Shown one piece after another: positions 24,777 to 42,953 of a stretch of DNA of 52,683 nt. Source of the stretch: Clostridia bacterium (GTDB lineage Bacteria; Bacillota; Clostridia; Oscillospirales; Acutalibacteraceae); the NCBI GenBank assembly GCA_017379935.1, contig JAFNVC010000015.1:1-52683 (forward strand). Direction: 5' to 3'. The position numbers were made by a program, and so were the translations under genes. The notes beneath the pieces are model-generated. The model was not told where the DNA came from. It saw nothing but the letters and a program-made list of their open reading frames with translations, and searched no databases. The first letter of the stretch is position 1. Each line of letters begins with the position of its first letter.

Positions 24777-24805
24777 TTGACTTTTATAATTAGTTTTGTT
24801 AAAAT
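24777..24805 (+). promoter_or_regulatory. Promoter of the SCP2/aminotransferase/transketolase operon
   Basis: TTGACT (24777-24782), a 17-nt spacer and TAAAAT (24800-24805). The next strong signal is AAGGAGG before the TTG start at 24857. Confidence 0.7.
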
Positions 24806-24856
24806 AAAATGGCAAATATATTAGTGTATTATTTACACTATAAGGAGGAATACATT

Positions 24857-25615
24857 TTGACAGATGTAAAAACCCTGGCGTACATAAATATGTATGCTAT
24901 TTTAGGCTCACTTGAGAATCTGTGCGAGCTTGACCCGAAGGCAAGCGCACTCATCGCTGACAGAAAGCCTATTTCTATCGGTCTCGAAGTCAAGGACGGC
25001 CCGTCTGCTACGATTACCTTCAAAAACGGCAAGTGCCGTATGGAACAGGGTATCGGCGAATGCGACATCAAGCTCCCCTTCTCTTCATGCGAAAAGTTCA
25101 ACGGTATGATTGACGGTACTGTCACTCCTATCCCCTCAAAGGGCTTTATCCACATCAAGTTCCTTTTGGACACATTCACAAAGCTTACGGATATGCTTTC
25201 TGCTTACATGCGTCCTACAGAAGAGGATCTTCAGGATGAGGAGTTCTTCAGAATCAGCACCTGTCTTCTTTTCTACACAATCTCTGTTGCAATCTCTCAG
25301 ATCGGCAACCACGACGAAATCGGCAAGTTCTCTGCTGACCACATCGTTGACGGTGACATCAAGATGTCTATCAAGGGCGGTCCCGCTTCAACAGTACGCG
25401 CAAAGAACGGTCACCTCATCACAATCAAGCAGGCTCCCGATGAGCCGCGTGCTATTATGGAATTCGGCAGCATGAAGCTCGCTCACGACCTCTTCGACGG
25501 CAAGGTTAACGCTGTTGCTCAGATCGGTGAAGGCACAATTGCTATGCACGGTATGATCAATATGATCGATAACCTCAACCGTATTCTTGACAGAGTTGCA
25601 CTTTATCTTGCTTAA
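24857..25615 (+). CDS. Tandem SCP2-like protein A
   Basis: This 252-residue soluble protein has no signal peptide. Its C-terminal half resembles the sterol carrier protein 2 fold: strand-rich ASTVRAKNGHLITIKQAP, then AIMEFGSMKLAHDLFDGKVNAVAQIGEGTIAMHG and a last helix. The N-terminal half repeats the same pattern (ATITFKNGKCRMEQG through DGTVTPIPSKGFIHIKF), so I read it as two SCP2-like domains joined by a helical linker. SCP2 domains bind lipids or other hydrophobic ligands; the ligand here is unknown. The start is TTG, because AAGGAGG ends 8 nt before it, while the first in-frame ATG lies upstream of the ribosome binding site. Codon use is very biased (GCT, AAG, CTC, GAC). It shares its design with the gene at 28850-29653. 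Confidence 0.68.
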   Translation: MTDVKTLAYINMYAILGSLENLCELDPKASALIADRKPISIGLEVKDGPSATITFKNGKCRMEQGIGECDIKLPFSSCEKFNGMIDGTVTPIPSKGFIHIKFLLDTFTKLTDMLSAYMRPTEEDLQDEEFFRISTCLLFYTISVAISQIGNHDEIGKFSADHIVDGDIKMSIKGGPASTVRAKNGHLITIKQAPDEPRAIMEFGSMKLAHDLFDGKVNAVAQIGEGTIAMHGMINMIDNLNRILDRVALYLA

Positions 25616-25629
25616 GGGAGGAAACAATA

Positions 25630-26895
25630 ATGGCTAATTTTAAAGTTAATCAGTACGACAAAAGCCGTGAGCTTTTCCAGCGTGCTACAAAAGTAATCCC
25701 TTCAGGTGTTTACGGCCATCTCGGCCCTGCTGAAGGTAACTTCATCCCCGTAAGCGCATGGCCCTTCTTCTCAGAGAAGGCTAAGGGTGCATATTTCTGG
25801 GACGTTGACGGTAACAAGTTCATCGACTATATGTGCGCATACGGTCCGAACATCCTCGGCTACAACGATCCCGATGTTGACAAGGCTGCTATGGAGCAGG
25901 CTAAACTCGGCAACTGCACAACCTCACCCTCATACAAGATGGTTGAGCTTGCAGAGCTTATGGTTGACACTGTAAAGACTGCTGACTGGGCATTCTTTGC
26001 AAAGAACGGTAACGATACAACACAGCTCGCTATCATGGCTGCACGTAACGCTACTCACAGAAAAAAGATCATCTTCGTTAACGGCTTCTATCACGGTGTT
26101 TCCGCTGTTGTTCAGAAGATCGACTACCCCGGTGTTCTTCCCGAGGACGTTGCAAACAACCTCTACGTTGACTGGAACGACTTTGACGCTCTCGAGAAGC
26201 TCGTTGCTGAGAACGAGGGCGAAATCGCTGCTTTCATTTCAACACCCTACCTTCACGGTAACTACTTCGACAACGTAACTCCTGCTGACGGCTATTGGCA
26301 GAAGGTCCGTAAGCTCTGTACAGAGAAGGGTATCGTTCTCATCGTAGACGACGTTCGCTGCGGCTTCCGTCTTGACCTTGCAGGCTCTGACGCATACTAC
26401 GGCTTCGAGGCTGACCTCATCTGCTTCTGTAAGGCTATCGCTAACGGCTGGAACATCTCCTGCCTCTGCGGTAAGGAATTCCTTCGTGACGCAGTTTCCG
26501 GTATGTCATACACAGGCTCCTACTGGATGAGCGCAGTCCCCTTCGCAGCTGCTATTGCTAACATCAACAAGATGAAGGAGCTCAACCTTCCCGCAGTTCT
26601 CCGTGAAAAGAGCGTTAAGCTCCTCGACGGTCTTAAGGCTGCAGGTGCTAACAACGGCTTTGACCTTGTCTGCTCAGGTGAGCCCGCACTCTTCTATATG
26701 CGCATAGCTAACGACAACTCAATGATGCTTCATCAGGAATGGATTGCTGAATGTGTCAAGAGAGGTATCTTCTTCTCGAGCCATCACAACCACTTCATGA
26801 ACTATGCAGTATCAGATGCTGATATCAAGCACACAATAGAGGTTGCTGACGAGGCATTCAAGATCGTTAAGAAAGCACATCCCGAGGCATTTTGA
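25630..26895 (+). CDS. Class III aminotransferase, glutamate-1-semialdehyde aminomutase-like
   Basis: This 421-residue fold-type I PLP enzyme is related to HemL and class III aminotransferases. It shows WDVDGNKFIDYMCAYGPNILGYNDP, GFYHG at 152-156, the PLP-ring Asp in VLIVDDVRCGFR (D240-D241) and the Schiff-base lysine in ICFCKAIANG (K268). Two usual motifs differ from HemL: the phosphate loop is KNGNDTT instead of SGTEA, and DEV is DDV. The KNGxD form occurs in HemL-like enzymes of surface-sugar clusters, as far as I recall, so a role in haem synthesis is unlikely, and no other hem gene is near. The operon pairs it with a transketolase, which suggests amination of a sugar-like keto or aldehyde compound (inference). 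Confidence 0.85.
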   Translation: MANFKVNQYDKSRELFQRATKVIPSGVYGHLGPAEGNFIPVSAWPFFSEKAKGAYFWDVDGNKFIDYMCAYGPNILGYNDPDVDKAAMEQAKLGNCTTSPSYKMVELAELMVDTVKTADWAFFAKNGNDTTQLAIMAARNATHRKKIIFVNGFYHGVSAVVQKIDYPGVLPEDVANNLYVDWNDFDALEKLVAENEGEIAAFISTPYLHGNYFDNVTPADGYWQKVRKLCTEKGIVLIVDDVRCGFRLDLAGSDAYYGFEADLICFCKAIANGWNISCLCGKEFLRDAVSGMSYTGSYWMSAVPFAAAIANINKMKELNLPAVLREKSVKLLDGLKAAGANNGFDLVCSGEPALFYMRIANDNSMMLHQEWIAECVKRGIFFSSHHNHFMNYAVSDADIKHTIEVADEAFKIVKKAHPEAF

Positions 26896-26938
26896 TTTAA
26901 CAAATCATTATATAAATAATATTTAGGAGGAAGTACCT

Positions 26939-27808
26939 ATGGCATTAACCAAGACAGAATGGTTAGCTCTTGAAAAAAAGGCTCACGAGCTCCGCAGACT
27001 TTGCCTTGACACCACTTTCTGGGCAGGCAGCGGTCACATCGGCGGCGGTATGAGCGTTATGGACATGATGACCATTCTCTATCACAAGTACCTCAACATC
27101 AAGGTTGACGATCCCAACTGGGAGGACAGAGACCGTTTCATCCTTTCAAAGGGTCATTCGGGTATTGCTTACGCTCCCGTTCTTGTTGACAAGGGCTTCA
27201 ACGATCCCGAGCAGCTCAAGACATTTAACCTCACAAACTCAAAGATGGGTATCCACCTTGACTCAAATAAGGTTATCGGCGTTGACGCTTCAACAGGCTC
27301 ACTCGGCCACGGCCTTTCAATCGCTCTTGGTACAGCTCTTGCTGCACGAGTTCTCGGCAAGGATTACAAGACATACTGTATCCTCGGCGACGGCGAATGC
27401 GACGAGGGTTCAAACTGGGAAGCAGCTATGGCTATCAACGCTTTCAAGGCTACAAACGTTATCTCCTTCGTTGACCGTAACAAGTGTATGATCGACGGAC
27501 GTACAGAGGACGTTATGCCCCTTGAGCCCTTCTGCGACAAGTGGCGCGCATTCGGCTTCCACGTAATCGAGGTTGACGGTCATAACCTCAACGAGCTTTC
27601 AGAGGCTATCGATTACGCTCTCGGCGAGCCCGATGCACCCGTTATGATCGTTGCTAACACCGTTAAGGGCGAAGGCATCGACTTTATGGCTGACGATTAC
27701 CACTGGCATTACGGTGCTATCGACGCTGAAAAATATGAGCTCGCTAAGAAGAGCCTTGAAAACTATTACGAGAAGCGTAAAGCTCGTGCAGAAAAGGAGG
27801 GCATCTAA
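26939..27808 (+). CDS. Transketolase, N-terminal (TPP-binding) subunit
   Basis: This is the first half of a split transketolase, 289 residues. It carries SGHIGGGMSVMD, KGHSGIAYAPVL with a substrate-channel His, STGSLGHGLS, and the thiamine diphosphate and Mg motif GDGECDEGSNWEAA at 150-163, then FVDRNK. Split transketolases are common in Clostridia and can be the main pentose phosphate enzyme, transferring two-carbon ketol units. The next gene, 2 nt on, is the C-terminal half, so the two form one heteromeric enzyme. AGGAGG lies before the ATG, and there is a 43-bp gap after the aminotransferase. Strong codon bias points to high expression. Confidence 0.95.
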   Translation: MALTKTEWLALEKKAHELRRLCLDTTFWAGSGHIGGGMSVMDMMTILYHKYLNIKVDDPNWEDRDRFILSKGHSGIAYAPVLVDKGFNDPEQLKTFNLTNSKMGIHLDSNKVIGVDASTGSLGHGLSIALGTALAARVLGKDYKTYCILGDGECDEGSNWEAAMAINAFKATNVISFVDRNKCMIDGRTEDVMPLEPFCDKWRAFGFHVIEVDGHNLNELSEAIDYALGEPDAPVMIVANTVKGEGIDFMADDYHWHYGAIDAEKYELAKKSLENYYEKRKARAEKEGI

Positions 27809-27810
27809 TT

Positions 27811-28830
27811 ATGGCAGGTGGACTTACATATACAGCTCTTGAATCTACTGAGCTTTCTACTGCTGAAATTTACGGCCAGACTCTTGTTGAGCTCGGTCGT
27901 GAGCATAAGGAAATCGTTGGTCTTACAGCTGACCTCGGCGGTTCAACAAAAATCGGTGTTTTCGGTAAGGAATTCCCCGACCGTTTCTTCAACGTAGGTA
28001 TTGCTGAGCAGAACATGTTCGGTATCGCTGCAGGTATGGCAAAGGCCGGCCTTGTTCCCTTTGTTTCTACCTTCTCAATCTTTGCTGCTCTTCGTTCTGC
28101 TGACCAGATTCACACAGATATCTGCTACCAGAACGTAAACGCAAAGATCATCGCTACACATTCAGGTACATCCTTCGGCCAGGCAGGTTCAACTCACCAC
28201 GCAATCTGCGATATGGCTGTTATCCGTTCAATGCCTAACATCACACTCATCTGCCCCGCAGACGGTGTTGAGACAGCTGAGGCTGTTCAGGCTGCTTACG
28301 AAAACTTCGGCCCGTACTACATCCGTATCAACCGTGGCTTCGACCGCGTTCTTTACGGTAAGGATTACGGCAAGGAGTATAAGTTTGAGGTTGGTAAGGC
28401 TATCGAGGTTAACCCCGGTACAGATATCACAGTTATCGCTTGCGGTTCATGCGTATATCAGGCTTACCAGGCTGCTAAGTTCCTTGAGAACGCTGACGGA
28501 CTTAAGGTTCGCGTTCTTGATATGCACACAATCAAGCCTCTTGACAAGGAAGCTGTTCTTAAGGCTATCCAGGAAACACGCCGTATCATCACAGTTGAGG
28601 ACCACACAATTCTCGGCGGTCTCGGTTCAGCTGTTGCTGAGGTTATGGCTGAAGCAGGTAAGGGCTGTGCATTCACACGTCTCGGTCTTAACGACCAGTT
28701 CGCACCCATCGGTCTCCACGAGGACATCATGTCTATGCTCGGTATCGACTGTAACGGTATCGTAAACGCTGTCCGTGAGGCTATGAATAAGGACTTCGAA
28801 GAAGACGACGATTGGGACGACGAGGTATAA
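27811..28830 (+). CDS. Transketolase, C-terminal (pyrimidine-binding) subunit
   Basis: This 339-residue subunit supplies the second half of the active site. The catalytic glutamate that activates the thiamine ring is in NVGIAEQNMFGIAAGMA (E66), in the position expected for the Pyr domain. SGTSFGQAGSTHHAICD and the transketolase C-domain (VRVLDMHTIKPLDKEAV, VEDHTILGGLGSAVAE) follow. The sequence lacks the features of 1-deoxyxylulose-5-phosphate synthase, which is a single chain. It has a short acidic tail (EEDDDWDDEV). The gene begins 2 nt after the N-subunit stop, with GGAGG inside that gene's end. Confidence 0.95.
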   Translation: MAGGLTYTALESTELSTAEIYGQTLVELGREHKEIVGLTADLGGSTKIGVFGKEFPDRFFNVGIAEQNMFGIAAGMAKAGLVPFVSTFSIFAALRSADQIHTDICYQNVNAKIIATHSGTSFGQAGSTHHAICDMAVIRSMPNITLICPADGVETAEAVQAAYENFGPYYIRINRGFDRVLYGKDYGKEYKFEVGKAIEVNPGTDITVIACGSCVYQAYQAAKFLENADGLKVRVLDMHTIKPLDKEAVLKAIQETRRIITVEDHTILGGLGSAVAEVMAEAGKGCAFTRLGLNDQFAPIGLHEDIMSMLGIDCNGIVNAVREAMNKDFEEDDDWDDEV

Positions 28831-28849
28831 TTGAAAGGGAGGTCTACTC

Positions 28850-29653
28850 ATGGCAAACGAAGTTTTATTGACCAATAAAATCTTCCTCAATGCTGCTTTA
28901 CCTCTCTTGAAGGTTATAGCAAACGACGTTCCGAGTCTTGCAAAGAAATTCGAGAAGGTTCACTGCATTTATCAGGTAAGTGCTATTGATCCCTCTGCTC
29001 CCGAAGGCAAGTTCGCTACACATTTCACCGTTAATGAGGGTGAATGGAAGGTATGTGCCGATAAGGTTGCTACCAACGCTCACGTTGAGCTCGAATTCAA
29101 GAGCATGGAGCAGATGAATGCCTTCTTCAAGGGCAAGATCGGCCCCTCTACCCTTCCGAAGATGAAGGGTGTGCTCAAGAAGCCCGTAGAGTTTGCGGCA
29201 TTTATGATGGTTCTTCTCAAGATGTCATCATTGCTTACAATCACTCAGGCTCCCGAGGACGAGGAGACACAGAAGCTTGCAGTTAAATGCTTCTTCTATC
29301 TTCTCTCATCAGGTATCAGCCAGCTCAACAAGCACGGCCACGAGGGCGTTCACGACTGGGCATCCAAGAGCCCTGACCGTGTTTATGCATGGGCAGTTGA
29401 CGGCTATCCCGAGGTTTCTGCTTTCCTTCGCGTTAAGGCAGGTAAGACACGTTCGGGCCGCGGCACATATAAGAGAGCTATGCCGTTCTTCACAATGAGA
29501 TTCGACTCACTTCCGAGTGCACTCGGCATTCTTCTTTCAACAGACGATATGCTCGAGTCCACAAAGAGAGGTAAGCTCATTATGGACGGTGCTCCCGAGT
29601 TCGGTGCACAGATCGGTGACTTCATGATGCAGGTCGGCGATTACGCAAAATAA
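28850..29653 (+). CDS. Tandem SCP2-like protein B
   Basis: This 267-residue soluble protein is the last gene of the operon. It follows the layout of protein A at 24857: a strand-rich N-half (FATHFTVNEGEWKVCADKV, then VELEFKSMEQMNAFFKGKIG), a helical middle (FMMVLLKMSSLL, then KCFFYLLSSGISQLN, matching LLFYTISVAISQIG in A), and a second strand-rich half ending in TMRFDSLPSALGILLSTDDMLESTKRGKLIMDGAPEFGAQIGDFMMQVGDYA. That last stretch is close to the SCP2 pattern of a ligand-binding fold. No catalytic motif is visible. A GGGAGG site precedes the ATG by 7-8 nt. Proteins A and B may bind and pass on the same hydrophobic compound, or form a complex (inference). Confidence 0.65.
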   Translation: MANEVLLTNKIFLNAALPLLKVIANDVPSLAKKFEKVHCIYQVSAIDPSAPEGKFATHFTVNEGEWKVCADKVATNAHVELEFKSMEQMNAFFKGKIGPSTLPKMKGVLKKPVEFAAFMMVLLKMSSLLTITQAPEDEETQKLAVKCFFYLLSSGISQLNKHGHEGVHDWASKSPDRVYAWAVDGYPEVSAFLRVKAGKTRSGRGTYKRAMPFFTMRFDSLPSALGILLSTDDMLESTKRGKLIMDGAPEFGAQIGDFMMQVGDYAK

Positions 29654-29664
29654 GAAAAAAGTTA

Positions 29665-29701
29665 AGCGGTATCGGAATTCCGATACCGCTTTGATTTTTT
29701 T
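29665..29701 (+). terminator. Terminator of the five-gene operon
   Basis: An 11-bp perfect stem AGCGGTATCGG/CCGATACCGCT with an AATT loop (29665-29690), then TTGA and seven T. Confidence 0.9.
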
Positions 29702-31043: not shown

Positions 31044-34000
31044 TTAAGATAACGAAACAGGAATACATCTAACAATCATTTCAAATAGGGCTTTAATAAT
31101 ATCTATAAACCTTTCTATGAAATTAAATATCGTTTCCTGCTCCGGAGTATCTATTCCATCCTCGGTTTCAACATCTACTTCAGGAACAGTTGCTCCTTCT
31201 TCAGCATCAATTCCTGAAGTTTGGTCGATAAGTGAAACATACTCTACATACGCAGATGATGTTTCGAGAAGAATCTCTGTCGGTTTAGATTGGTCAACAT
31301 TTGCGAGGAGCATACCCGCTTGGTTGAGGAGTGCAACATCGGACTCATCAATAACACCGTCATGGTTGCAGTCAGCAGCCATATAAACCGCCTCACTGAC
31401 ATCTTCCTTTGTGAGCATTCCGTTCGCGAGGCAGGAAACAAGAACAGCATCTTGTCCATCGTACCAACCATCACCATTTACATCGCCGAAGATAACAATT
31501 GTATATGCATCTACAATTTCTTCGCCTCGTTCGATGTATATAATCGATTCAGTTCCGAGCGTTGAATAGCTCACACTACATGACGGGTCAGAAATCTCGA
31601 TAAAGGAATCAAGCGAATTCATATTTGAGGAAAGTCCTGTAATTATACCCTTTTCGTGGTCTATCGTCGCTGTAGAAAGAGCTTCTACACCAACAACCTT
31701 AACAATGCAGTAGTCCTTAAGTCCTCCATCCTTAGTCGTTGCAACTATTACAGCCGTACCTGCCATAACACCCTTGATATTGCCGTTTGCATCAACTGTG
31801 GCAATAGATGGATTTGTACTTTCCCAAACAATCTCTTTGTTAACAACATTGTCAGGAGTGATAATACCCGTAAGCTGTTTTGTTGAACCAATCGAGATAT
31901 AAACTTCATCATCACTGAGTTCAAAGTTATCCGCAGAATTATTTACAACGACCACAATTGATGCGTCGAAAGCGTTTCCGTTTTCATCAGTTACTGTACA
32001 TGTAATTGTTGCAGTACCTGCGGACACTGCGGTGATTTTACCATCATTATCAACCGTAGCAACTGAAGTATCGGAGGACAAATAAGAAATTGTATACAGC
32101 ACACCTTCATCCACATCAATGTTGGGAGTGATTGTAATTTCTTCACGCTTATTAAGTGTAACATTGAAACCGAGAGCAACACCGTGAACTTGACCTGCAC
32201 CTGTAACTCGGACATCACAGCTTGCATATAAACCGGTAGATGTCGTAGCTGTAATTGTCGCTTCACCTGCACTCAAAGCAGTGATTACACCATTAGTATT
32301 CACTGATGCAACAGATGGATTGCTGCTTGTCCATATAATTTCAACATCATCCATAAGCGTTGTGTTGAAAGAGGCATTTAATGATGTTGTTTCATCCTGA
32401 GTAAGAACAACAACCTTTCTCTCTATATTAAGACTAATATACTCGACAGAAATATTGTTGCTTATTGCATAGCTTTCAGCGTAAGAGCCTGCATAACACC
32501 AGATTGTGAGATTATCACATCCACTGAATGCACCGTCACCAATCGCAGATACACTCTTAGGAATAATAATCTTTTCAAGATTGGTACAACCTGCAAACGC
32601 ACTTCCGAAAACTCTGTCAACACCTGATGATAACTCAATATTTTTAACTGTTTTATTATCCTTAAAAGCACCGTAACCGATTCTTGAAGCAGCACTTATG
32701 AAAACCGTTTCTGAATTGCCTTTATAAGAAATAAGAACATCATTCTTAATTTCGAAATTAGGACTATCGGTATCATCAACAATCGCAAATTTAATACCAT
32801 TCATCATAGCATAAGAATGCATATATGAATTTTCTTTACAGCAAATCATTGCTTTATAGCTTGCCTGTAAGATATCATTGCCAATTATAATTTCACCTGT
32901 CGAATTAAACCGAACCGTTTCAAGAGCATCGTTATTTGTGAATGCGAAATCTCCGATTTCGGTTACGCTTTCAGGAATAACAATATCAGTGACAGCGTCG
33001 CAATTTGTTATAAAATATGACGGAAGTTTTATAACATTTTCACCAATAACAACATTAGTTAACGTAAAACAACCGTTGAATGCATTATTAGCTGAATCAC
33101 AATTAGTCGCATTGAAATAAAGGTCTGATAAAGTTCCAATATTTCCAAAAGCATTGTAACCTATGTTTTTAACATTGCTTCCAATTGTTATGCTTTTAAT
33201 CTTAGGCGATATATCATATCTGCAAGAATGAGACCCTGTATCACCACAATTTGAACATTCTTCTGTTGTATCACTCCAATAATATTCAGACTTTCCTTCA
33301 AACAATGAATCAGGAATATTCACAACAGCTTCACCAAAAATTACATCTACACCTTCAGTCTCTCTACCGCAATTAACAAAAATATAATCTTTGTATTCTT
33401 CAGGATTAAGGTCACTTGCATTGTAATAAATCTTTTCTACACTTACACAATCAGCAAATGCATAATTTGCAAGACTTGTAAGGCTCTTTGGAATAGTGAT
33501 TTCCGTAACAGATGTGCAGCCCTCGAAAGCTCCATGACATACTGTATATGTGCCATCAGGAATAACAATTTTTTCGAGACCGGTACAGTTTTTAAATGCA
33601 TCCTGACCGATACTTATAATGTCGTTTGGCAAGTTGACTTTTTTTAGATAACTACAGTTTTCAAATGCATTTTCGTTGATGTATGCAACATTGCTGTCAA
33701 CATTATATTCCGTTCTGCTGTTACCTGTCGGGTAGCGAATAAGTCCTGACTTGTTCTTGTTATAAAGAACACCATATTCATCCGTACAGTAATTAATACT
33801 GTTACTTCCGATTGAATAGCTTTCAACACTGTCGCAGCCGTCGAAAACATTATAGTTAATCTGAAGATTCGGGTTGTTACCCAAATCAACAGTTTTCATT
33901 GAAGCACAGCTGTTAAATGCACAATCGCTGATATTCGTTACTGTATCAGGAATAGTGATTTCTTTAAGTGATGAACACTGATAGAAGGCATACGAGCCGA

Positions 34001-37000
34001 TTGAAGTAATGCCTTCGTTAAGGGTTATGTTTTCGATACTTGAACAATTACGGAAAGCATAGTTACCTATCTTTGTCGCATTTGTGATATTGACTGTTTT
34101 AAGAGTCTTTAAGTCATAATAATTATAAGCAAACAGATAACCCAATGTTGATGCAGAATTTCTGTCAGAGCCCAAAAACGGAACGGTTAACTTTTCAATA
34201 TCACTGTTTCCTTCAAGAATAGCATAATCAATGCTTGTAACAGATTCAGGAATAACAAGTTCTTTGATTGATGTATAAGCAAAAGCACGATAACCAATTG
34301 ACTTTAAAGAAGCTGGAAGTTCTATTGCTTCCAAAGAAGCACAAGCATAGAAAGTATTCCTTCCGATTGATTCAACACCATCAGGAATTCTGATTTCTTT
34401 AAGACTTGAGCAACCCTCAAATGCATATTCACCAATTGAATTAACCGATTCTGGAAGTCCTATAGATTTAAGGGATGAACAACCATAAAATGTGTATTTT
34501 CCAATATTAGTGGCATTAGTTATATTAACCGTTTTCAGTGAATTAGGTACAGATGAATAATCCTCATCCCAAGAGTTAAATAAAAAGGATAATCTCCATG
34601 ATAAATTAGAATTATGTCCAATGAAAGGTATCGTTAACATTTCAATGCTATGATTATTATAAAGTATGTCTGCATCCATACTTGTAACCGAATCTGGGAT
34701 AACAAGTTCCTTAATTTCTGTATTTGCAAAAGCATAACTACCAATCGATGAAACTCCATCTTCTATTGTTACACTTGCAATCTCAATCTTTTTTTGTTTG
34801 TTCCACGGTGCTATATTGCTACCACTGCTACTATAGTTATACATTACACCCGTGCCACAAATCGCAAGATTTCCGTCAAAATGTAGCTTCCAATCAAGAT
34901 TCTCTCCGCATTCGCCTGAGAAATACGGATTTGCTGAATCCGAATCAAAAACAACATTACCGTTGTTATAAATGGTTCCTTGTGGAGCTTCAATTCCATC
35001 CCATTGAGACTTTTCGCCTTCATAATATATAACAGCAGTATCTGTTAATGCCCAAGAATTTCCACCATATATATATGTAACACTTTCAGGTATTGTAACA
35101 CTTTCAACTTCGTTTAATCCATAGAAAGCATAACAATTAAGTTTTGTTGTTCCATCAGGAATAACAATATCACCACTGACTACACTGCCATCAATGTAAA
35201 GCGAACCCGTAGCAACCTGCATAGGGTTGGAAGCATAACCTTTAAAATCAACAGAAATCCAATCTAATACACTTCCTGTATAATTCACATCAACGATACC
35301 ACAATGCGAGAAAGCAGAGCTTCCGATGCTTTTAATGCTTTTTCCAATTTGAACACTACTAAGGTTTGAACACTCAGAAAAAGCATAGCCACCAATTTGG
35401 ATTACGCTATCAGGAATAATTATACTCGTAAGACCCGTACAACTAAAGAAAGCTTCCGAACCAATGCTTGTTACGCTGTCGGAAATTAGAATATTTTTAA
35501 TATTTCCGCATTCATAAAATGTAAAGTCACCAATTTCGGTAACACCATCTTGAATTATTATTTCTGTACAAGTATTTTTTTGCCAAGGTGTATTATTGGA
35601 CGAATCCCAGTCATAATCTGCAGCATGTCCATCACCTTTGGTTAAAGTTACTTTTTCTATGCTGTTGCAATCGTAAAAAGTATAATAATTTCGGCCACTG
35701 TTCACAGAAATCGGCACAACAAATTCCGTTACATTAGAACAGTTATAAAAAGCATAATTACCAATGCTGGTTACTCCATCTTCAATAACAATCTTTTTTA
35801 TTGATGAAGCATAACTATACCACGGAGCATAATTTGAAGACGAATAGTCCGTCATTGCTCCGTTACCGCTGATAATAAGCTTCTCGTTATTAATCAGATA
35901 CCAATTTAAGTTTGTACCACATGTACCGGTTACTGTTGTTGCCAAGATTATGTTATTTATAATAGCGTCATTACCTGTAGCATCTATAGCGACTGCATCC
36001 CACTGCTCCTGTGTTCCTGCATAGTACACATTAGTCAACGATGTACATTTGTAAAAAGCATTCTTTGCTATAGTAGTTACCGTATCAGGAATAATAACTG
36101 TTGTAAGTCCTGAACATTTTCCAAAGGCGTAATTTCCTATTGTTGTTACACCTTCCGGAAGAGTAAGCGATGTTAAGGCGGTACAACCATAAAAAGCGTA
36201 ATATCCAAGATTCGTTACACTATTTGGAATAGAAATCGAAGCAAGGCTTGTACAGTCACGGAATGCTGTATTGCCAATTAGCGTAACTGTGTTAGGAATA
36301 TAAACATAAGTAAGATTTTTACAACCTACGAAAGAATCATTACCAACACGTGTAACACCTTCATAAATTGAAACAGATTTAATTTCATCCTTATAAGAAT
36401 CCCATGGTGCGACAGTGGTTGATGAATAGTTGGTCATCTTTCCTGTACCAACTATTTCAAGTTTACCGTCAGTGTTTAAAAACCACTGTAAATTGTCACC
36501 ACAAGTTCCCGAAGCATACGATATATTAAGATATTGATTTAAAACTTCATTTCCTTCACCGATAGATATACTATCCCATTGTTCCTGATTACCAAGAAAG
36601 TTAACATTGCTTAATGAATAACAACTTGAAAATGCATAATCACCAATATAAGAAACGCTATCAGGTATAATAACACCCTTGACATTACTACAATTTGAGA
36701 AGGCATAGTCAGCAATAAGTTCCGTCCCATTTTCAACTGTAAAAGCACCGTTCAAAGCTTCTCTTACGCGAATGAGATAATTGCCAAGATAAAGACCATC
36801 ATTCACCCAATTAGCCGTGTTCATATAGTACTTTGTATCGTACAGCACATTGTTTCCGATACTTGTGATTTCACTTGAAACAGTTATGTCTTCAAGCTGA
36901 TTTGAACCATAAAAAGCATAATCGCCAATAACCTTAACACTTTCAGGAAGTGATATACTTGTTAAATTATAGCAATAGGAAAAAGCATGCTCACCAATAT

Positions 37001-38090
37001 ATTCTATACTGTTCGGCAAGTCTATGGTCAAATTGGAATTGTTATAAAACATATAATCTCCAATCGCCGTTACACCATCTTCAATAATTATTTCGGAACA
37101 ATTACTGATATACCACGGGGTACCACTATGATATGAATTATAATCCGGGTATGTTCCGTCTCCTTTAGTTAAAGTGATTTTTTCTATATTATAACAATGA
37201 TAAAAGGGCGTGTCGCTATTGTCGAAGTAGCTACTATATGCTATCGTCGCTGAAACTGGCATAGTAAGTTCTCGAAGATTGCTACAGTTATAAAAAGCAT
37301 AATTTTCAATATAATTAACACCATCGCCAATTACTACAGTATTAAGGTTAGTGCAATTATAAAACGTGTACGATTTAACACAACTAACTTTATCTGGAAT
37401 TAAAACACTTTCAAGTGATGTGCAATAATAAAATGCTGAGGAATTTATAGCCACTATACTTTCAGGAAATGATATATTACTAAGAAGAGAACAATGCCCA
37501 AAAGCATATCTAGCAATTGTCACTGTTCCGTCTTTAATTACATAATCACCTGAAATTTCCTGATTTGCTTTTATTAAATGATTTCCGATATATAGAACAT
37601 CATTTTCCCAATTATCTTCATTATTATAATATGCTGTATCTTCGAAAGCTTCGCCTCCAATTGTGGTTATGCTGTCAGGTAGTATAATATTTGTCAAATT
37701 AGTACAGCCTAAAAAGGCGAAATCACCGATACTTGTAACCGTGTTTGGCAATTCGATACTGGTTAATTGGGTACAACCTGTAAACGCATCACCACTAATG
37801 CTTGTAACACCATAAGCAATATTAATAGTCTTGATTGAATCTCTATTAGTATACCAAGGCGAAGGAATTGATGTATACATTGAACCCGTGCCGCTTATTA
37901 CAAGCTCTCCGCTACTTGTGTTCAAATTCCAAGTCAGATTATCTCCACAAGCACCGCTATATGTTGCCGCACTTGCGAAAAGATTAAACAAATTCGGCAA
38001 TTCAAGTCCGACAAACCCGCTCAACGGCGCTGCAGTCAGTATCATCACCACTGTCATAATCGTTGCTAACAATCTTTTTATCTTCTTCAT
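31044..38090 (-). CDS. Giant BspA-like leucine-rich-repeat surface protein with Ig-like and dockerin domains
   Basis: This is a secreted 2348-residue protein. The signal peptide MKKIKRLLATIMTVVMILTAA leads into four modules, each opening with a CG-NL-W-L-x-I-x-G-x-G-x-M pattern near residues 45, 525, 720 and 1060. BspA-type repeats follow (units like GVTSIGNYAFYNCSNL). From about 1890 come three bacterial Ig-like (Big_2) domains with WTSSNPSVASV, SSDTSVATV and ESTNPSIATV. From about 2200 a type I dockerin shows two calcium loops, GDVNGDGWYDGQDA and ADCNHDGVIDESDVA. The tail ends in an amphipathic helix. Dockerins bind cohesins, so it is probably displayed on a scaffold; BspA repeats mediate adhesion in known proteins. 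It is element cargo, AT-rich, behind a GGGAGG ribosome binding site. Confidence 0.92.
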   Translation of the reverse strand: MKKIKRLLATIMTVVMILTAAPLSGFVGLELPNLFNLFASAATYSGACGDNLTWNLNTSSGELVISGTGSMYTSIPSPWYTNRDSIKTINIAYGVTSISGDAFTGCTQLTSIELPNTVTSIGDFAFLGCTNLTNIILPDSITTIGGEAFEDTAYYNNEDNWENDVLYIGNHLIKANQEISGDYVIKDGTVTIARYAFGHCSLLSNISFPESIVAINSSAFYYCTSLESVLIPDKVSCVKSYTFYNCTNLNTVVIGDGVNYIENYAFYNCSNLRELTMPVSATIAYSSYFDNSDTPFYHCYNIEKITLTKGDGTYPDYNSYHSGTPWYISNCSEIIIEDGVTAIGDYMFYNNSNLTIDLPNSIEYIGEHAFSYCYNLTSISLPESVKVIGDYAFYGSNQLEDITVSSEITSIGNNVLYDTKYYMNTANWVNDGLYLGNYLIRVREALNGAFTVENGTELIADYAFSNCSNVKGVIIPDSVSYIGDYAFSSCYSLSNVNFLGNQEQWDSISIGEGNEVLNQYLNISYASGTCGDNLQWFLNTDGKLEIVGTGKMTNYSSTTVAPWDSYKDEIKSVSIYEGVTRVGNDSFVGCKNLTYVYIPNTVTLIGNTAFRDCTSLASISIPNSVTNLGYYAFYGCTALTSLTLPEGVTTIGNYAFGKCSGLTTVIIPDTVTTIAKNAFYKCTSLTNVYYAGTQEQWDAVAIDATGNDAIINNIILATTVTGTCGTNLNWYLINNEKLIISGNGAMTDYSSSNYAPWYSYASSIKKIVIEDGVTSIGNYAFYNCSNVTEFVVPISVNSGRNYYTFYDCNSIEKVTLTKGDGHAADYDWDSSNNTPWQKNTCTEIIIQDGVTEIGDFTFYECGNIKNILISDSVTSIGSEAFFSCTGLTSIIIPDSVIQIGGYAFSECSNLSSVQIGKSIKSIGSSAFSHCGIVDVNYTGSVLDWISVDFKGYASNPMQVATGSLYIDGSVVSGDIVIPDGTTKLNCYAFYGLNEVESVTIPESVTYIYGGNSWALTDTAVIYYEGEKSQWDGIEAPQGTIYNNGNVVFDSDSANPYFSGECGENLDWKLHFDGNLAICGTGVMYNYSSSGSNIAPWNKQKKIEIASVTIEDGVSSIGSYAFANTEIKELVIPDSVTSMDADILYNNHSIEMLTIPFIGHNSNLSWRLSFLFNSWDEDYSSVPNSLKTVNITNATNIGKYTFYGCSSLKSIGLPESVNSIGEYAFEGCSSLKEIRIPDGVESIGRNTFYACASLEAIELPASLKSIGYRAFAYTSIKELVIPESVTSIDYAILEGNSDIEKLTVPFLGSDRNSASTLGYLFAYNYYDLKTLKTVNITNATKIGNYAFRNCSSIENITLNEGITSIGSYAFYQCSSLKEITIPDTVTNISDCAFNSCASMKTVDLGNNPNLQINYNVFDGCDSVESYSIGSNSINYCTDEYGVLYNKNKSGLIRYPTGNSRTEYNVDSNVAYINENAFENCSYLKKVNLPNDIISIGQDAFKNCTGLEKIVIPDGTYTVCHGAFEGCTSVTEITIPKSLTSLANYAFADCVSVEKIYYNASDLNPEEYKDYIFVNCGRETEGVDVIFGEAVVNIPDSLFEGKSEYYWSDTTEECSNCGDTGSHSCRYDISPKIKSITIGSNVKNIGYNAFGNIGTLSDLYFNATNCDSANNAFNGCFTLTNVVIGENVIKLPSYFITNCDAVTDIVIPESVTEIGDFAFTNNDALETVRFNSTGEIIIGNDILQASYKAMICCKENSYMHSYAMMNGIKFAIVDDTDSPNFEIKNDVLISYKGNSETVFISAASRIGYGAFKDNKTVKNIELSSGVDRVFGSAFAGCTNLEKIIIPKSVSAIGDGAFSGCDNLTIWCYAGSYAESYAISNNISVEYISLNIERKVVVLTQDETTSLNASFNTTLMDDVEIIWTSSNPSVASVNTNGVITALSAGEATITATTSTGLYASCDVRVTGAGQVHGVALGFNVTLNKREEITITPNIDVDEGVLYTISYLSSDTSVATVDNDGKITAVSAGTATITCTVTDENGNAFDASIVVVVNNSADNFELSDDEVYISIGSTKQLTGIITPDNVVNKEIVWESTNPSIATVDANGNIKGVMAGTAVIVATTKDGGLKDYCIVKVVGVEALSTATIDHEKGIITGLSSNMNSLDSFIEISDPSCSVSYSTLGTESIIYIERGEEIVDAYTIVIFGDVNGDGWYDGQDAVLVSCLANGMLTKEDVSEAVYMAADCNHDGVIDESDVALLNQAGMLLANVDQSKPTEILLETSSAYVEYVSLIDQTSGIDAEEGATVPEVDVETEDGIDTPEQETIFNFIERFIDIIKALFEMIVRCIPVSLS

Positions 38091-38205
38091 TTGGATTCCT
38101 CCCTATGAATATTTATCCTTAATATAATTTAAAACAACTATACATTATAAGTGTAACACTTTCAGTTGGAAAATTCAACCACAATAAAGAGGTATTATAT
38201 ATATC

Positions 38206-38244
38206 AAAAAATCCCGTCCGATTAAGATTTCGGGCGGGATTTTT
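38206..38244. terminator. Bidirectional terminator between cargo gene and rep module
   Basis: A 14-bp stem (38207-38220 with 38231-38244, one G-T pair) has T runs on both strands. It lies between two divergent genes, where no terminator is needed for either, so it probably blocks read-through between cargo and backbone. Confidence 0.8.
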
Positions 38245-38269
38245 GTATTTTGTCCGTTTTTTGAAATCC

Positions 38270-38290
38270 TTTCTAACATATTCATTTTGA
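38270..38290 (+). repeat. TCTAACATATTYATTT motif, copy 1 of 3
   Basis: This pyrimidine-led motif is shared with 42351-42368 and 42633-42651. It stands in the leader of the rep module, about 255 bp before rep. Function unknown; see the two other copies. Confidence 0.6.
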
Positions 38291-38362
38291 CGCACTTAAA
38301 GAGCGTTAATATTTTATAGAAAGGATTGATTCACCTTGATTAGAATCAAAAAATTAAAAACC

Positions 38363-38500
38363 AAATGTGCTAAATGTGCAAACATAGCACCAAACACCTC
38401 AAAAGCCTTATTTATCAAGGCTTTTAACACACAACGCGCCCGAAACAGGGCTTGTGTAGGGCGCGTTGGATTAAATGTGCCAAATGTGCCAAAGCACATT
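38363..38500 (+). other. Candidate double-strand replication origin with iterons and hairpins
   Basis: The region just before rep has four copies of the 9-mer NAAATGTGC in two pairs (38362-38379 and 38472-38489), and an inverted half (GCACATT) at 38494-38500. Between them are two hairpins: AAAAGCCTT/AAGGCTTTT (38401-38425), and CAACGCGCCC/GGGCGCGTTG (38432-38468) with a 17-nt loop. Direct repeats flanking a GC-rich hairpin upstream of rep are the layout of rolling-circle origins of the pMV158 type, where Rep binds the repeats and nicks a hairpin loop. The nick site itself is not recognisable. A short frame (38336-38566) crosses the region but is not convincing as a gene. Confidence 0.6.
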
Positions 38501-38525
38501 AACTTCATTGAAAGGAGGGATTTAA

Positions 38526-39947
38526 ATGACCGAAATTTCAAGCAGATGTTGGGAATTAACAACTAAGCTTATCCATCCGGAAACAGGAAAAACACTCATA
38601 GAGATTGACCAAATCGACAAAATTTCAAAAAATTTTCCTCAGCTCGATTCTTATGCTTGGATTGTTCATGATAAGGATAAAAAAGCTGATGGCACACCTA
38701 TTGAACCACATATTCATCTTTTGATGAATTTCACCAACGCTCAAAAATTATCACCTTTGGCTAAAGCTTTCAATTTCGAGGATAACCCCAGTTTTTTTGT
38801 AAAGAAAAATAACGGACGAGGAAAGCGTTCAGCATACCTTGACAGTCTCGTTTATTTAACTCACGAAGATGAAAAACAGCAAAAATTAGGTAAACATCTT
38901 TATTCTGATGATGAAGTTCATTTTTGGCACGTAAACGGACAAGGTTTCCGCGAGTATGTCATTGAAAAACAAAAATCAGTTAAAACTAATGTAGAAAAAT
39001 ACGGTAGAGCCGAACTTACATTAACAGAAAAGCTTGAACTTTCAGTTTTATACGACGGTGTAAAACCTCGAGATATCCGCCTAAAACATCCGTTTGAGTA
39101 TAATAAGAGTGTAGAGAAATTCAAGAAAAACAGAATTGATTTTCTTAAAAATCAACCAATGCCTCCTTTTAGATTTAATGTATATGTTACCGGTGACGGC
39201 GGCAGTGGCAAGGGTTTGATTTCTCAAGGACTCTCACATGCACTTATTAACCCTGACGGTGAGATGGAAGATGAAGACATTTTCTTCACAGTTGGAGCTC
39301 AAAGCGTAAGTTTTGAAGGTTATAATGGACAACCTGTGATTATTTGGGACGATTGTAGGTCAAATGAGTTGTTTCAAAAATTAGATTCGCGCGGAAATAT
39401 ATTTAATGTATTCGACCCCCATCCTAAAAATATTTCGCAAAACATTAAATACGGTAGTATTAAATTAACTAATACAATTAACATAATTAATTCTGTACAG
39501 CCATTTGAAGAATTTTGCAATAAAATCGCAGGTGAACATATTGACAGAAAAACTGGCGACATCATACCCGCAGAAGATTCGCAAATCAGCCAAATCTACA
39601 GACGCTTTCCGTTAGTTATCGAAATAATCGATGCTGAACATTATAATTTAAGCTACAATATGGCATTTTTTAAGGAAGCGGAAGATTATAAGGAACTTTG
39701 TTGTTACGAAAACATTTATGGTCCTTTCATAAAACTTGTCGAAACTTTCGGAAAGAATTCAGAAGCATATAAGAAACATACAAAAGAATCTTTATCACTT
39801 GTTTGTGACTATTACGAATTTGCAAAAAAAATACATACAGAAAGTCCTGAATTGAATGAAGATTCAATTGATATTGATTTCGGAAGATTAGGTTTGCCAA
39901 ATACCGATGAGCCGTTGCCATTTGATGATATTATCGAAATAAAATAA
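38526..39947 (+). CDS. Replication initiator: HUH nuclease fused to superfamily 3 helicase
   Basis: This 473-residue Rep has two domains. The first 150 or so residues match the Rep_2 (pMV158 RepB-like) HUH endonuclease: WIVHDKDKK, the metal-binding HUH motif EPHIHLLM (H62, H64), and the catalytic-tyrosine segment LVYLTHEDEKQ (Y110). From about 215 a superfamily 3 helicase follows with Walker A GDGGSGKG (223-230), Walker B VIIWDD (271-276) and a motif C region TNTINIINS. This fusion is the architecture of CRESS-DNA virus Reps and of their bacterial relatives, the pCRESS plasmids, often found integrated in Firmicutes genomes. It should nick, unwind and rejoin DNA. AAGGAGGGA lies 6-8 nt before the ATG. 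It converges with the second recombinase. Confidence 0.87.
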   Translation: MTEISSRCWELTTKLIHPETGKTLIEIDQIDKISKNFPQLDSYAWIVHDKDKKADGTPIEPHIHLLMNFTNAQKLSPLAKAFNFEDNPSFFVKKNNGRGKRSAYLDSLVYLTHEDEKQQKLGKHLYSDDEVHFWHVNGQGFREYVIEKQKSVKTNVEKYGRAELTLTEKLELSVLYDGVKPRDIRLKHPFEYNKSVEKFKKNRIDFLKNQPMPPFRFNVYVTGDGGSGKGLISQGLSHALINPDGEMEDEDIFFTVGAQSVSFEGYNGQPVIIWDDCRSNELFQKLDSRGNIFNVFDPHPKNISQNIKYGSIKLTNTINIINSVQPFEEFCNKIAGEHIDRKTGDIIPAEDSQISQIYRRFPLVIEIIDAEHYNLSYNMAFFKEAEDYKELCCYENIYGPFIKLVETFGKNSEAYKKHTKESLSLVCDYYEFAKKIHTESPELNEDSIDIDFGRLGLPNTDEPLPFDDIIEIK

Positions 39948-39950
39948 TTA

Positions 39951-39983
39951 GAATCCTGCGAAGATTAAAGCTTCGCAGGATTC
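39951..39983. terminator. Bidirectional terminator between rep and second recombinase
   Basis: A 13-bp perfect stem (39951-39963 with 39971-39983) and a 7-nt loop lie between the convergent genes, with T-rich sequence to the right. Confidence 0.75.
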
Positions 39984-39984
39984 T

Positions 39985-40989
39985 TCATTTAGCAAGCAAA
40001 TAATTATTTGAGGCAGATAAACGCCAATGAGCCAAACAGAATACATTCGTTGCGAATAAAGCCAATCTATCGAACTCAATATCAAAGCCATCTTCAATCG
40101 CCTTCTTTTTAGTGGCACCTCGTAATTTATATACACCTTTTGTGTTTTTAAACGGGAATGGACGTGGAATACCCGTCTTGGGATTTAAATTATATTTATT
40201 CCACGTAGCAAGCAAATCTCCAATTAACTTCTGCCTATTTTTTTGGTCAAGTTTTTCATTTCCTGTATGCAATAAATCGTAATAAAATTTATAATTTTTT
40301 TGGGCAAATAATGCGCGCAAATGATGGTAATCCATTTTGGGGGAAAAGTCCTCTTTTTTAAACAATCTCTCATTACTATTAGATTTGTTGAAGTATTGTT
40401 TTACAAATTCAATATCTTCAGAAAAATTGAGCCTCTGTTTATGGAATCGACCACCCTTTCCGCGTTTGATACGGATAGCATAGCCTATTTCATCTTGTAT
40501 CAAATCATCCATACACAATCTCATCAACTCAGACCGGCGGATTCCTGTGCGTGTTTGAATTTCCGCGACATAAGAATATTTGGGATTACCATACCTCTGT
40601 TGGGTGTGTTGATATTTGTTTGCTCGTTCACGACTTCTTATATTCTCGCTAACTCTTCTGATAGGTTTGGTTATTTCTGACATAGAAATACCGTGGAAAC
40701 TACATATCGGGGCGATGTAAGTATGAATCGTACTCGCAGTTTTTCCTTGTTCCTTTAAATAATCCGCGTATTCCTGAATGAATTTGGAACAATCCTCTTT
40801 ACTCTTAGAATTATGATATTTTCTACAATAACAGATATATCGCTTATAGTTTTTTTCATAAGCCTCTCGGGTTACATCGTTTTTGAATTTTTTGAAATAC
40901 TCCCGGGCCTCATTCATCATAACTTTATCAATAGACAACTTTTTATTGTTGCACTTTTGCTTTTGTCTGCGCTCGGTGCATCGTGCCAT
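39985..40989 (-). CDS. Divergent tyrosine recombinase
   Basis: This 334-residue protein has the layout of a phage-type integrase. An N-terminal core-binding domain includes REAYEKNYKRYICYCRKYH and STIHTYIAPICSFHG. The catalytic domain has box I RTGIRRSELMRL (R151), YHHLRALFA (His222 or 223, Arg225), and near the end CLAHWRLSASNNY with H321 and the nucleophile candidate Y330. Spacing between boxes is unusual, with an insertion of about 90 residues between the HxxR box and the last His, so it is not the element's typical integrase. It may resolve multimers or invert DNA. ATG 40989 has GAGGTGA upstream. It is expressed toward rep. Confidence 0.72.
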   Translation of the reverse strand: MARCTERRQKQKCNNKKLSIDKVMMNEAREYFKKFKNDVTREAYEKNYKRYICYCRKYHNSKSKEDCSKFIQEYADYLKEQGKTASTIHTYIAPICSFHGISMSEITKPIRRVSENIRSRERANKYQHTQQRYGNPKYSYVAEIQTRTGIRRSELMRLCMDDLIQDEIGYAIRIKRGKGGRFHKQRLNFSEDIEFVKQYFNKSNSNERLFKKEDFSPKMDYHHLRALFAQKNYKFYYDLLHTGNEKLDQKNRQKLIGDLLATWNKYNLNPKTGIPRPFPFKNTKGVYKLRGATKKKAIEDGFDIEFDRLALFATNVFCLAHWRLSASNNYLLAK

Positions 40990-41182
40990 TATGTTCACCT
41001 CTATTTTAAAATAATTTTTGAACACTTCAATATAATCGGTGTATTCTGACCGCCATAAGTTCAACGTTCGTGGGCTTCAACAGCTACGATAATTTCGCAC
41101 TCGATGGGGAACAGTGCACCGAGCCAACCGCAACGGATGCGGACGTGCTCTTTAAAACACGATTTTTCTCCTTAAAAGGAAC

Positions 41183-41230
41183 CGCTAATTGGTTATTCTC
41201 CTTGATAACCAAGAAGAATAACCATTAGCG
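41183..41230. other. Long imperfect hairpin, candidate single-strand origin or RNA element
   Basis: Arms 41183-41204 and 41210-41230 pair over 20 bp (7 + 9 + 4, interrupted by one bulge and one mismatch) around a 5-nt loop ATAAC. It lies in the 445-bp gene-free stretch 40990-41434, which is less AT-rich than the rest of the element. The stretch also has an open frame of about 54 codons from 41070 without a start signal. Rolling-circle elements need such a hairpin for lagging-strand synthesis. No T run follows, so it is not a simple terminator. Confidence 0.5.
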
Positions 41231-41422
41231 CACAGACAGCACTTTGGAGGATTTGAAAGAAGGTCAGAAAAATCAAAACTGTGCAGTCTGCATTGTGTGG
41301 CTATATGTAATGCGGAAAAAAAAGAAAGGATAGGAAAAAACCGCTTACCACCATTTTAAATCCTATTGTCATATTTCTCATAAAAAATATGTAATAAAAC
41401 TCAATTTTTAATAAAAGCAAAG

Positions 41423-41448
41423 CCCGCTGTGAACTTAATCACAGCGGG
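41423..41448 (-). terminator. Terminator after the OB-like gene
   Basis: A 10-bp perfect stem CCCGCTGTGA/TCACAGCGGG overlaps the last codons of the gene and is followed on the minus strand by CTTTGCTTTTATT. Confidence 0.7.
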
Positions 41449-42118
41449 TTAAATCTTTGAGGTCATCTTTAAATAGCACGGCAAGAAAAATTGTGCTATG
41501 CACATTGAGGAAACTAAAAATCTCTTCTGACAAGCCTTTAGTGTTTTCTCGAATCGGCTCTAACAAATTCAAAACGCAAAGAGTGAATAATGATTCAAAA
41601 TCAATATGAGTGTGTGCTTTTGAAAAACCTTCAAAAGCTTTAACAAGAGAATATGTTGCATACAATTCACCTTCATATTTATATCCGTGCAAAATACATT
41701 TATTTTTATTTTTAAGCAAGTCGTCCTGATGAAGTTTAAGTAGTGTAAACAACACATCCGCTATAGCACACGAATCAAACTTATTCAAAGTTTTTTTGAA
41801 ATCATACAGGATTTCCTCTGCTGTAATCTTTGTTATAGGTTCAACATTAAAATCTTTAAGTGCTATAAATGCCGGACAGATATTTGATGCCATAATCTTA
41901 CCGTGCTCACCGACGTATCCATTGACCTGTACCATCATTCCTTCCAACTTACGCATATCAAAATCTTTAATAGGATAAAACAACACAGCCGGATGCAGTA
42001 CATTTCCATCTGACATCAAAAACATTTTTACTACGTCACCATAAGTTTTATCATAACCATACTTGATTTCCCGGATTATGAAAAACGAGTTAATTTTTTC
42101 ACCTTTTTTAAAATACAT
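41435..42118 (-). CDS. Element protein of unknown function, OB-fold and HD-like pattern resembling YhaM
   Basis: I do not firmly recognise this 227-residue protein. The N-terminal 90 residues (KKGEKINSFFIIREIKYGYDKTYG through GMMVQVNGYVGEHGKIMAS) run like the OB-fold of the YhaM 3'-5' exoribonuclease. The middle segment (ILHGYKYEGELYATYSLVKAFEGF) lines up with the start of its HD domain. Where YhaM has the metal HD pair, this protein has CVLNLLEP, so the catalytic dyad is absent and the protein would bind rather than cut nucleic acid. This is pattern comparison by eye and could be wrong. AAGGA lies 11 nt before the ATG. It diverges from the small-protein/excisionase/integrase genes. Confidence 0.45.
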   Translation of the reverse strand: MYFKKGEKINSFFIIREIKYGYDKTYGDVVKMFLMSDGNVLHPAVLFYPIKDFDMRKLEGMMVQVNGYVGEHGKIMASNICPAFIALKDFNVEPITKITAEEILYDFKKTLNKFDSCAIADVLFTLLKLHQDDLLKNKNKCILHGYKYEGELYATYSLVKAFEGFSKAHTHIDFESLFTLCVLNLLEPIRENTKGLSEEIFSFLNVHSTIFLAVLFKDDLKDLTRCD

Positions 42119-42350
42119 ATATTTTCAATCCTTTTAAATTAATTATTCTGACCTACTCATCATTTAAGTTCCTTTAGACTTAAATTCAATAAAAATATGT
42201 AATTTAAAAGATTTTTGAATCCTATAAAATTTAAAAAAGTTTACCAATTCATCGAGAAGTTTTTAGTGAAAAATCGAAAATATTTTAAATTTTTTCTGTT
42301 TTTTAATAAAAATGGCTCGAAAATTGTTTTAAAACGCACTTTTTTAAATT

Positions 42351-42368
42351 TTTCTAACATATTCATTT
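42351..42368 (+). repeat. TCTAACATATTYATTT motif, copy 2 of 3
   Basis: It matches copy 1 over 18 bases and lies 30 bp before the small-protein start at 42398, following a T-rich run. It may be a leader or promoter element. The stretch 42119-42350 before it is very AT-rich and holds no gene. Confidence 0.6.
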
Positions 42369-42397
42369 CAAATCAATGAAATCGAGGTGAAATGAAT

Positions 42398-42583: not shown

Positions 42584-42632
42584 AACAAAACAGACTCCCT
42601 TTGGAGTCTTGATAACATTATTTTTTCTTCTG

Positions 42633-42931: not shown

Positions 42932-42953
42932 TACTGAGAAAGGAGTATTTCTA

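Follow-up and report, generated by a model that had tools for sequence, protein, structure and literature searches.

A stretch of 52,683 nucleotides from a Clostridia bacterium of the family Acutalibacteraceae (assembly GCA_017379935.1, contig JAFNVC010000015.1, forward strand), in the following called the window, was analyzed with respect to a five-gene operon in which an aminotransferase gene and the two halves of a transketolase are enclosed by genes for two SCP2-like proteins. The assembly of the host comprises 1.84 Mb and is 85% complete. Loci and genomes of this analysis are labeled with L- and G-numbers, respectively. The following features were annotated:

24777..24805, + strand: promoter-like site TTGACT-17-TAAAAT with TG before the second hexamer (a consensus match only; 12 sites in the region against 6.5 expected)
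24842..24849, + strand: ribosome-binding site AAGGAGGA, preceding the TTG start of g1 and assigned from sequence
24857..25615, + strand: g1, predicted two-lobed SCP2-fold protein of 252 amino acids (aa), which pairs with the aminotransferase
25630..26895, + strand: AT, class III pyridoxal phosphate (PLP) aminotransferase, FumI-like, 421 aa, with the PLP lysine K268 (position by motif)
26939..27808, + strand: TKN, thiamine diphosphate (ThDP)-binding half of a split transketolase, 289 aa, with N97 in place of an acceptor-pocket Arg
27811..28830, + strand: TKC, pyrimidine-binding and C-terminal half of the split transketolase, 339 aa; the catalytic E66 is retained, A125 stands for the acceptor Asp and A18 for the phosphate Arg
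28850..29653, + strand: g5, second predicted two-lobed SCP2-fold protein, 267 aa, apparently an ancient paralogue of g1, which pairs with the transketolase
29664..29701, + strand: intrinsic terminator, a 12-pair hairpin followed by a T tract

The five open reading frames (ORFs), their tight spacing and the terminator agree with a preliminary description of the window. For g1, the TTG at position 24857 behind the ribosome-binding site was annotated as start codon. A longer ORF starting with the ATG at 24809 is not supported, because the aligned orthologues start at the TTG position or at most three residues from it.

The conservation of the operon was analyzed in a scan of one genome per species, mostly metagenome assemblies, by which 73 close loci were gathered with g1. 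The order g1-AT-TKN-TKC-g5 is complete in 51 of these loci, and the remaining 22 show a prefix of the same order with the sequence ending at most 324 bases later; none of the 73 contradicts the arrangement. The five-gene composition proposed in the preliminary description could be confirmed in this way, as could the co-occurrence of the gene families that it had named as a check, since the enzymes follow g1 in every locus long enough to tell. As the loci were gathered via g1, the set is silent on operon copies without this gene.

Among 60 related genomes, g1 was found in 24, namely in 17 of 18 congeneric genomes (the host included), 7 of 19 other members of the family and none of 23 genomes from other families. 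A search of 341 genomes of the class with the g1 profile revealed two further carriers (three counting the host), and six further carriers were detected with the AT profile in 398 genomes of the phylum at E ≤1e-75. A wider g1 profile gave matches in the order of G610 (4 of 198 genomes) and in the class of G772 (13 of 97), counting these centres and earlier finds; G987 and G1000 were matched solely through a g5-like gene. The complete five-gene order is present in the distant Bacillota loci L117, L118, L121, L189-L195 and L197, and L120, L200 and L201 are interrupted by contig ends. The operon, which occurs in Bacillota of both gut and environmental origin, is real, old and strictly kept.

Structure models of g1 and g5 were predicted with a mean pLDDT of 93.7 each and share the order of their elements. 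Each has two similar lobes, built of helices and four strands, which are separated by a helical middle. The structural matches comprise insect and mammalian SCP2 proteins, UbiJ and the C-terminal domain of alkylsulfatases, and several of the matched SCP2 structures were solved with long hydrophobic ligands, according to their titles. Both lobes of g5 are matched. For g1, mainly the C-terminal lobe is matched, and the N-terminal lobe was assigned from the Pfam match that the g1 protein of L121 gives. On these models, both proteins are assigned to the SCP2 fold. The gathering cut-off of PF02036 (21.3 bits) is missed by g1 (12.9 bits), and g5 gives no match; among the homologues, g1 of L121 passes with 28.4 bits, and no match was obtained for g1 and g5 of L117 and g5 of L092.

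The comparison of g1 and g5 by hhalign resulted in a probability of 91% (E 1e-6), and the g1-family profile also picks up g5 genes. In a tree of 43 sequences, 24 g1 and 19 g5 proteins are split by one fully supported branch, at which long branches meet. As read from this tree, which parts all g1 from all g5, the duplication predates the spread over the sampled lineages. The paralogous, two-lobed SCP2-like layout with a matching helical middle described earlier is borne out by the models, the structural matches, the tree and the profile comparison. The lobes share their fold with the SCP2-fold carriers UbiJ, animal SCP2 and the C-terminal domain of the alkylsulfatase SdsA1; unlike these, g1 and g5 have two lobes per chain with a helical middle, and their own sequences are below the Pfam cut-off.

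The AT protein is a class III aminotransferase with 134.2 bits for the Pfam family Aminotran_3 (cut-off 30.5), and the PLP lysine K268 is invariant in 26 close sequences and kept in 19 of 19 distant ones. A HemL function was rejected due to a TIGR00713 score of 203.6 bits, compared to an equivalog cut-off of 527.3. The nearest solved structure is, by a wide margin, FumI (287 bits versus 171.7 for HemL), the aminopentol aminotransferase of Sphingopyxis (PDB 6hbs), with which AT has the YGH and [YF]WxS stretches in common. The YGH stretch is present in all 18 distant AT copies that cover the site, one more being too short. According to the available part of PMC2933618, FumI uses pyruvate as acceptor for the C2 amine of hydrolysed fumonisin B1 and thus deaminates a sphingoid-like 2-amino-3-ol. 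Its role there is in mycotoxin breakdown, and no transketolase or SCP2 partner is mentioned in that part of the report.

In TKN and TKC, the ThDP-binding, pyrimidine-binding and C-terminal domains of a transketolase were detected with Pfam, and the catalytic and donor-side residues E66, H129, H33, H106 and H257 are retained. The acceptor side is changed. In the 55 TKC sequences of the close loci, the acceptor Asp is replaced by Ala (A125) and the neighbouring Glu by Gln without exception, and the phosphate Arg by Ala (A18) in 54. The 58 close TKN sequences all have Asn in place of a pocket Arg, and 57 have Met in place of a polar residue. Among 14 distant operon copies of TKC, Ala 125 is found in all and Gln 124 in seven, and position 18 is occupied by A (7), G (2), S, T, K (2) or R; most distant TKN copies have Cys or Ser at the Met position. 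Two further TKC copies, both of G524, were kept outside the 14, a second copy (L139) with 51% identity, two in-frame stops, Arg 18, Asn 124 and Gly 125, and a partial one at a contig end (L156) with A18, Q124 and A125. Lacking both the acceptor Asp and the phosphate-binding Arg, TKC differs from a pentose phosphate transketolase.

The best solved relatives of TKN and TKC are the two chains of the split transketolase of Carboxydothermus hydrogenoformans (PDB 6yaj, 6yak), which show the same domain split. This enzyme keeps the Arg and the Glu-Asp pair, as does a second split transketolase with canonical residues in the host, whereas both are missing in the operon copy. For comparison with the E. 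coli transketolase, the offset of its sequence in the alignment (51-248 to 395-592) is consistent with A125 corresponding to D469; the numbers H26, H261 and R358 and the roles of these residues are those of the E. coli enzyme. The residues D469, S385, R520, R91, H100 and H473 are named in the available parts of PMC5073344 and PMC10787763, where the D469T variant is termed propanal-accepting and yields a hydrophobic surface (PMC10787763) and the variant S385Y/D469T/R520Q was reached walking from phosphorylated to non-polar aldehydes (PMC5073344). Mainly because the acceptor Asp is lost as in these D469 variants, a non-polar acceptor without a C2 hydroxyl can be inferred by homology for TKN/TKC.

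Besides the operon-type copy, a canonical split transketolase was found in 8 of 10 genomes checked; the search in G772 found none, and G553 contains a full-length transketolase-like ORF near g1-AT. The operon transketolase as the sole one of the cell, a case the preliminary description had singled out for checking, is ruled out by the second copies in the host and in these genomes.

Several loci show parts of the operon in other arrangements. In G553, g1-AT and TKN-TKC-g5 are located at two separate places, and in L196, which is without AT, g1 lies on the opposite strand adjoining TKN-TKC. Five genomes (L108, L109, L119, L198, L199) have g1-AT without adjacent transketolase genes, and whole-genome searches of three genomes with the pair only (G372, G381, G610) found neither g5 nor an operon-type transketolase. 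These arrangements suggest that the operon is built of two modules, one comprising g1 and AT, the other g5 and the transketolase. The isolated pairs would also fit separate steps that are merely co-transcribed, with a spare pentose phosphate transketolase, an aminotransferase that has nothing to do with it and SCP2 proteins that serve a different purpose. This is considered very unlikely, as a canonical split transketolase is present beside the operon-type copy in most genomes checked, all five genes occur in each of the 51 complete loci, and the order is kept in distant lineages.

The codon usage was compared by the effective number of codons, with mechanically picked ORFs as background. AT (34.7), TKN (33.9) and TKC (31.9) have the three lowest values of the 37 ORFs in the window. 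For an ORF at 482-4228, which we take to be RpoB, the value is 38.1, and for the halves of the canonical host transketolase it is 38.3 and 40.0. For a comparison between loci, 35 were used that are 15 kb or longer and contain the complete operon and no fewer than four background ORFs. Here, the value is below the local median for TKC in 35, TKN in 34, AT in 31, g1 in 27 and g5 in 26. This strong codon bias suggests a bulk function of the operon in the lineage of the window.

A transketolase makes or splits a 1-hydroxy-2-ketone, and an aminotransferase acting at C2 turns such a ketone into a 2-amino alcohol. On this basis, the operon is tentatively interpreted, with less than even confidence, as a pathway of two steps that is dedicated to a hydrophobic 2-amino-1,3-diol and makes use of SCP2-fold carriers. 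The split transketolase would take the ketol (C2) unit of an ordinary ketose and transfer it to a non-polar aldehyde without a C2 hydroxyl, giving a 1,3-dihydroxy-2-ketone, and the FumI-like aminotransferase would convert this ketone to the 2-amino-1,3-diol, i.e., the head group of a sphingoid base. For the water-insoluble intermediates, each enzyme would have its own SCP2-fold protein as carrier, with g5 serving the transketolase and g1 the aminotransferase; proteins of this fold could keep such compounds dissolved. We infer how polar the substrate is and how long its chain, that g1 and g5 act as carriers and that the pathway runs toward synthesis. The preliminary description had suggested an amino-sugar-like or aminolipid product with a hydrophobic carrier. 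An amino compound with such a carrier would fit the FumI-like AT, the fold of g1 and g5 and an acceptor site that is less polar, as predicted from the sequences, and of the two products the aminolipid is the better option, the amino-sugar-like one being less favored because polar residues of the acceptor side are lost.

The proposed chemistry resembles an engineered cascade of transketolase and transaminase leading to 2-amino-1,3-diols, in which ketol transfer to a non-polar aldehyde is likewise followed by formation of the aminodiol (described in part in PMC5073344 and PMC10787763). The acceptor Asp (D469 in E. coli) is the residue changed in both. The laboratory cascade combines engineered parts and has Thr at this site, whereas the operon has Ala, natural neighbours and SCP2-fold proteins, and its activity is predicted only. 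If the chemistry holds, nature uses an aminodiol cascade like the one built by hand by chemists. Bacillota of gut and digester that have been little studied could then have a pathway of their own for making or degrading amines of the sphingolipid kind, which would bear on the origin and fate of gut sphingoid bases and point to natural transketolases for non-polar aldehydes. Literature searches, judged mostly by titles, revealed no description of this gene set, in agreement with the earlier statement that no system of this composition is described. The novelty lies at the level of the gene system; each single enzyme is from a known family or fold.

A more specific version of the proposal is a route to sphingoid-type bases that is independent of serine palmitoyltransferase, with a fatty aldehyde as substrate of the transketolase, C2 amination by the FumI-like enzyme and a separate SCP2-fold carrier for each of the two enzymes. 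It would operate in anaerobic Bacillota in which no alpha-oxoamine synthase is evident. We regard this version as unlikely. The established route starts with serine palmitoyltransferase, an enzyme of the alpha-oxoamine synthase type. It leads to the same type of head group as the operon product would have if the long-chain reading holds, but the operon contains no alpha-oxoamine synthase gene. In all 17 operon genomes of the window's family (79-99% complete), no match to the alpha-oxoamine synthase model TIGR01825 exceeds 23.9 bits; full-length members were found in four of eight other operon genomes.

A number of observations speak against the two-step pathway for a hydrophobic 2-amino-1,3-diol proposed above. 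No LuxC-type fatty-aldehyde reductase was detected in the genome of the window or in 22 of the 24 carriers (the host included) among the 60 relatives. Matches occur in six of the 60 genomes, two carriers among them at 26 bits (cut-off 21), so that a LuxC-type enzyme as source of the aldehyde is without support. No acyltransferase or other lipid gene is evident among the linked genes looked at, and the distant locus L117 is without the codon bias described above. Furthermore, three of four phosphate ligands (S45, H117, R175) are retained in the operon transketolase, and the phosphate Arg position is Arg or Lys in three of the 14 distant TKC copies. A divergent split transketolase of G372 (L203 9734-11498) also lacks the acceptor Asp and has the N97 change. 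It was kept outside the 14 (34% TKC identity, Ala at 124, Leu at 125) and is surrounded by genes that look sugar-related from their sequences. Since this enzyme shows the same losses, the pocket changes by themselves are no proof of a lipid substrate.

Transporter genes add to these points. Amino-acid permease genes lie directly before the g1-AT pair in three genomes (L119, L198, L199, which also have a nearby gene of about 910-940 aa in common), and 13 of the 73 close loci have an MFS_2 gene (Pfam 'MFS/sugar transport', one member tested; e.g., L083 16350-17807) in their flanks, sometimes upstream and sometimes downstream, without a fixed position or strand. Plasmid-borne relatives of AT, with 33-39% identity in the leading matches (best 25 of 1342 records), adjoin a gene for an ABC substrate-binding protein in four of five regions (Variovorax, Agrobacterium, Pseudosulfitobacter, Shinella); ABC genes are about 5 kb from the relative in the fifth (Streptomyces). 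The regions of Variovorax and Pseudosulfitobacter also contain permease genes, and those of Agrobacterium and Shinella a gene with the annotation fused alpha-ketoacid dehydrogenase. No transketolase or SCP2 gene is annotated near the relative in the five regions, for which the gene table is incomplete. Because of the adjoining ABC transporter genes, the AT subfamily is probably broader than long-chain substrates, and together with the permease-g1-AT loci they give a hint of deamination and of substrates that are imported and perhaps small.

A small or short-chain amino-alcohol or a deoxy-amino-sugar, made for example from a fermentation aldehyde, with the SCP2-fold proteins as enzyme partners and not as lipid carriers, would be in line with the retained phosphate ligands, the small-solute transporters beside AT homologues and near some operons, and the losses in L203, which are not lipid-specific. 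Two conserved SCP2 proteins would be hard to explain for a water-soluble substrate, and the long hydrophobic ligands in several matched structures also argue against it, so that we consider this reading rather improbable. Even with a short substrate, the strongly conserved, codon-biased operon marks a clear gap in the metabolism of uncultured bacteria.

The reactions of transketolases and aminotransferases are reversible. The operon could therefore also run in the opposite direction, AT deaminating a sphingoid-type 2-amino-1,3-diol and the transketolase moving the C1-C2 ketol unit to a sugar phosphate and freeing an aldehyde, as an anaerobic breakdown of sphingoid bases or similar amino-alcohols. 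Such a breakdown would agree with FumI working as a deaminase (PMC2933618, available part), with the transporters adjoining the FumI-like plasmid genes and the permease-g1-AT loci, with the fused dehydrogenase genes in two of the plasmid regions and with the MFS_2 genes near the close loci. Genes for TetR-like regulators, found downstream of g5 in three clusters (L117 6128-6778, L118 5600-6250, L197 14484-15161), may be added; two of them were scanned, and both resemble FadR, a regulator of fatty-acid metabolism, with scores far below its cut-off. However, no transporter gene lies within the operon, and the occurrence of g1 in 17 of 18 congeneric genomes as well as the codon bias resemble a core function and less an optional catabolic one. 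Breakdown as such is therefore rated as a rather doubtful alternative. Concerning direction, synthesis of the 2-amino-1,3-diol is slightly favored due to the near-universal presence in the genus and the codon bias, with the known reaction of FumI and the nearby transporters counting for breakdown.

The neighbours of the close loci were collected as mechanically picked ORFs and grouped into 107 clusters, of which 28 were examined with the sequence start and 15 with their places. A gene for a class II aldolase protein (406 aa) next to one for a HemL-like class III aminotransferase (below the HemL cut-off), divergent upstream of g1, recurs in 20 close loci (e.g., L055 7105-9814). An M24 peptidase gene is located near 11 close loci, and other neighbours, including polynucleotide phosphorylase and ABC ATPases, near at most nine. 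Clusters 6 and 10 resemble antisense ORFs over the operon. Single genes are inserted between AT and TKN in L092 (2760-3806, Exo_endo_phos) and L098 (6749-7849, Beta-lactamase family).

In the window, the terminator is followed by a weak EamA-like gene in convergent orientation. Behind the operon, a block of low G + C content extends from 31044 to 44132, with about 30-36% from 32 kb on. It encodes a BspA-type leucine-rich-repeat protein of 2348 aa, which carries Big_2 and dockerin domains, a second protein in which Rep_OBD is combined with RNA_helicase, and a tyrosine integrase. The block probably represents a mobile element that has integrated here and that codes for Rep and for a giant surface protein.

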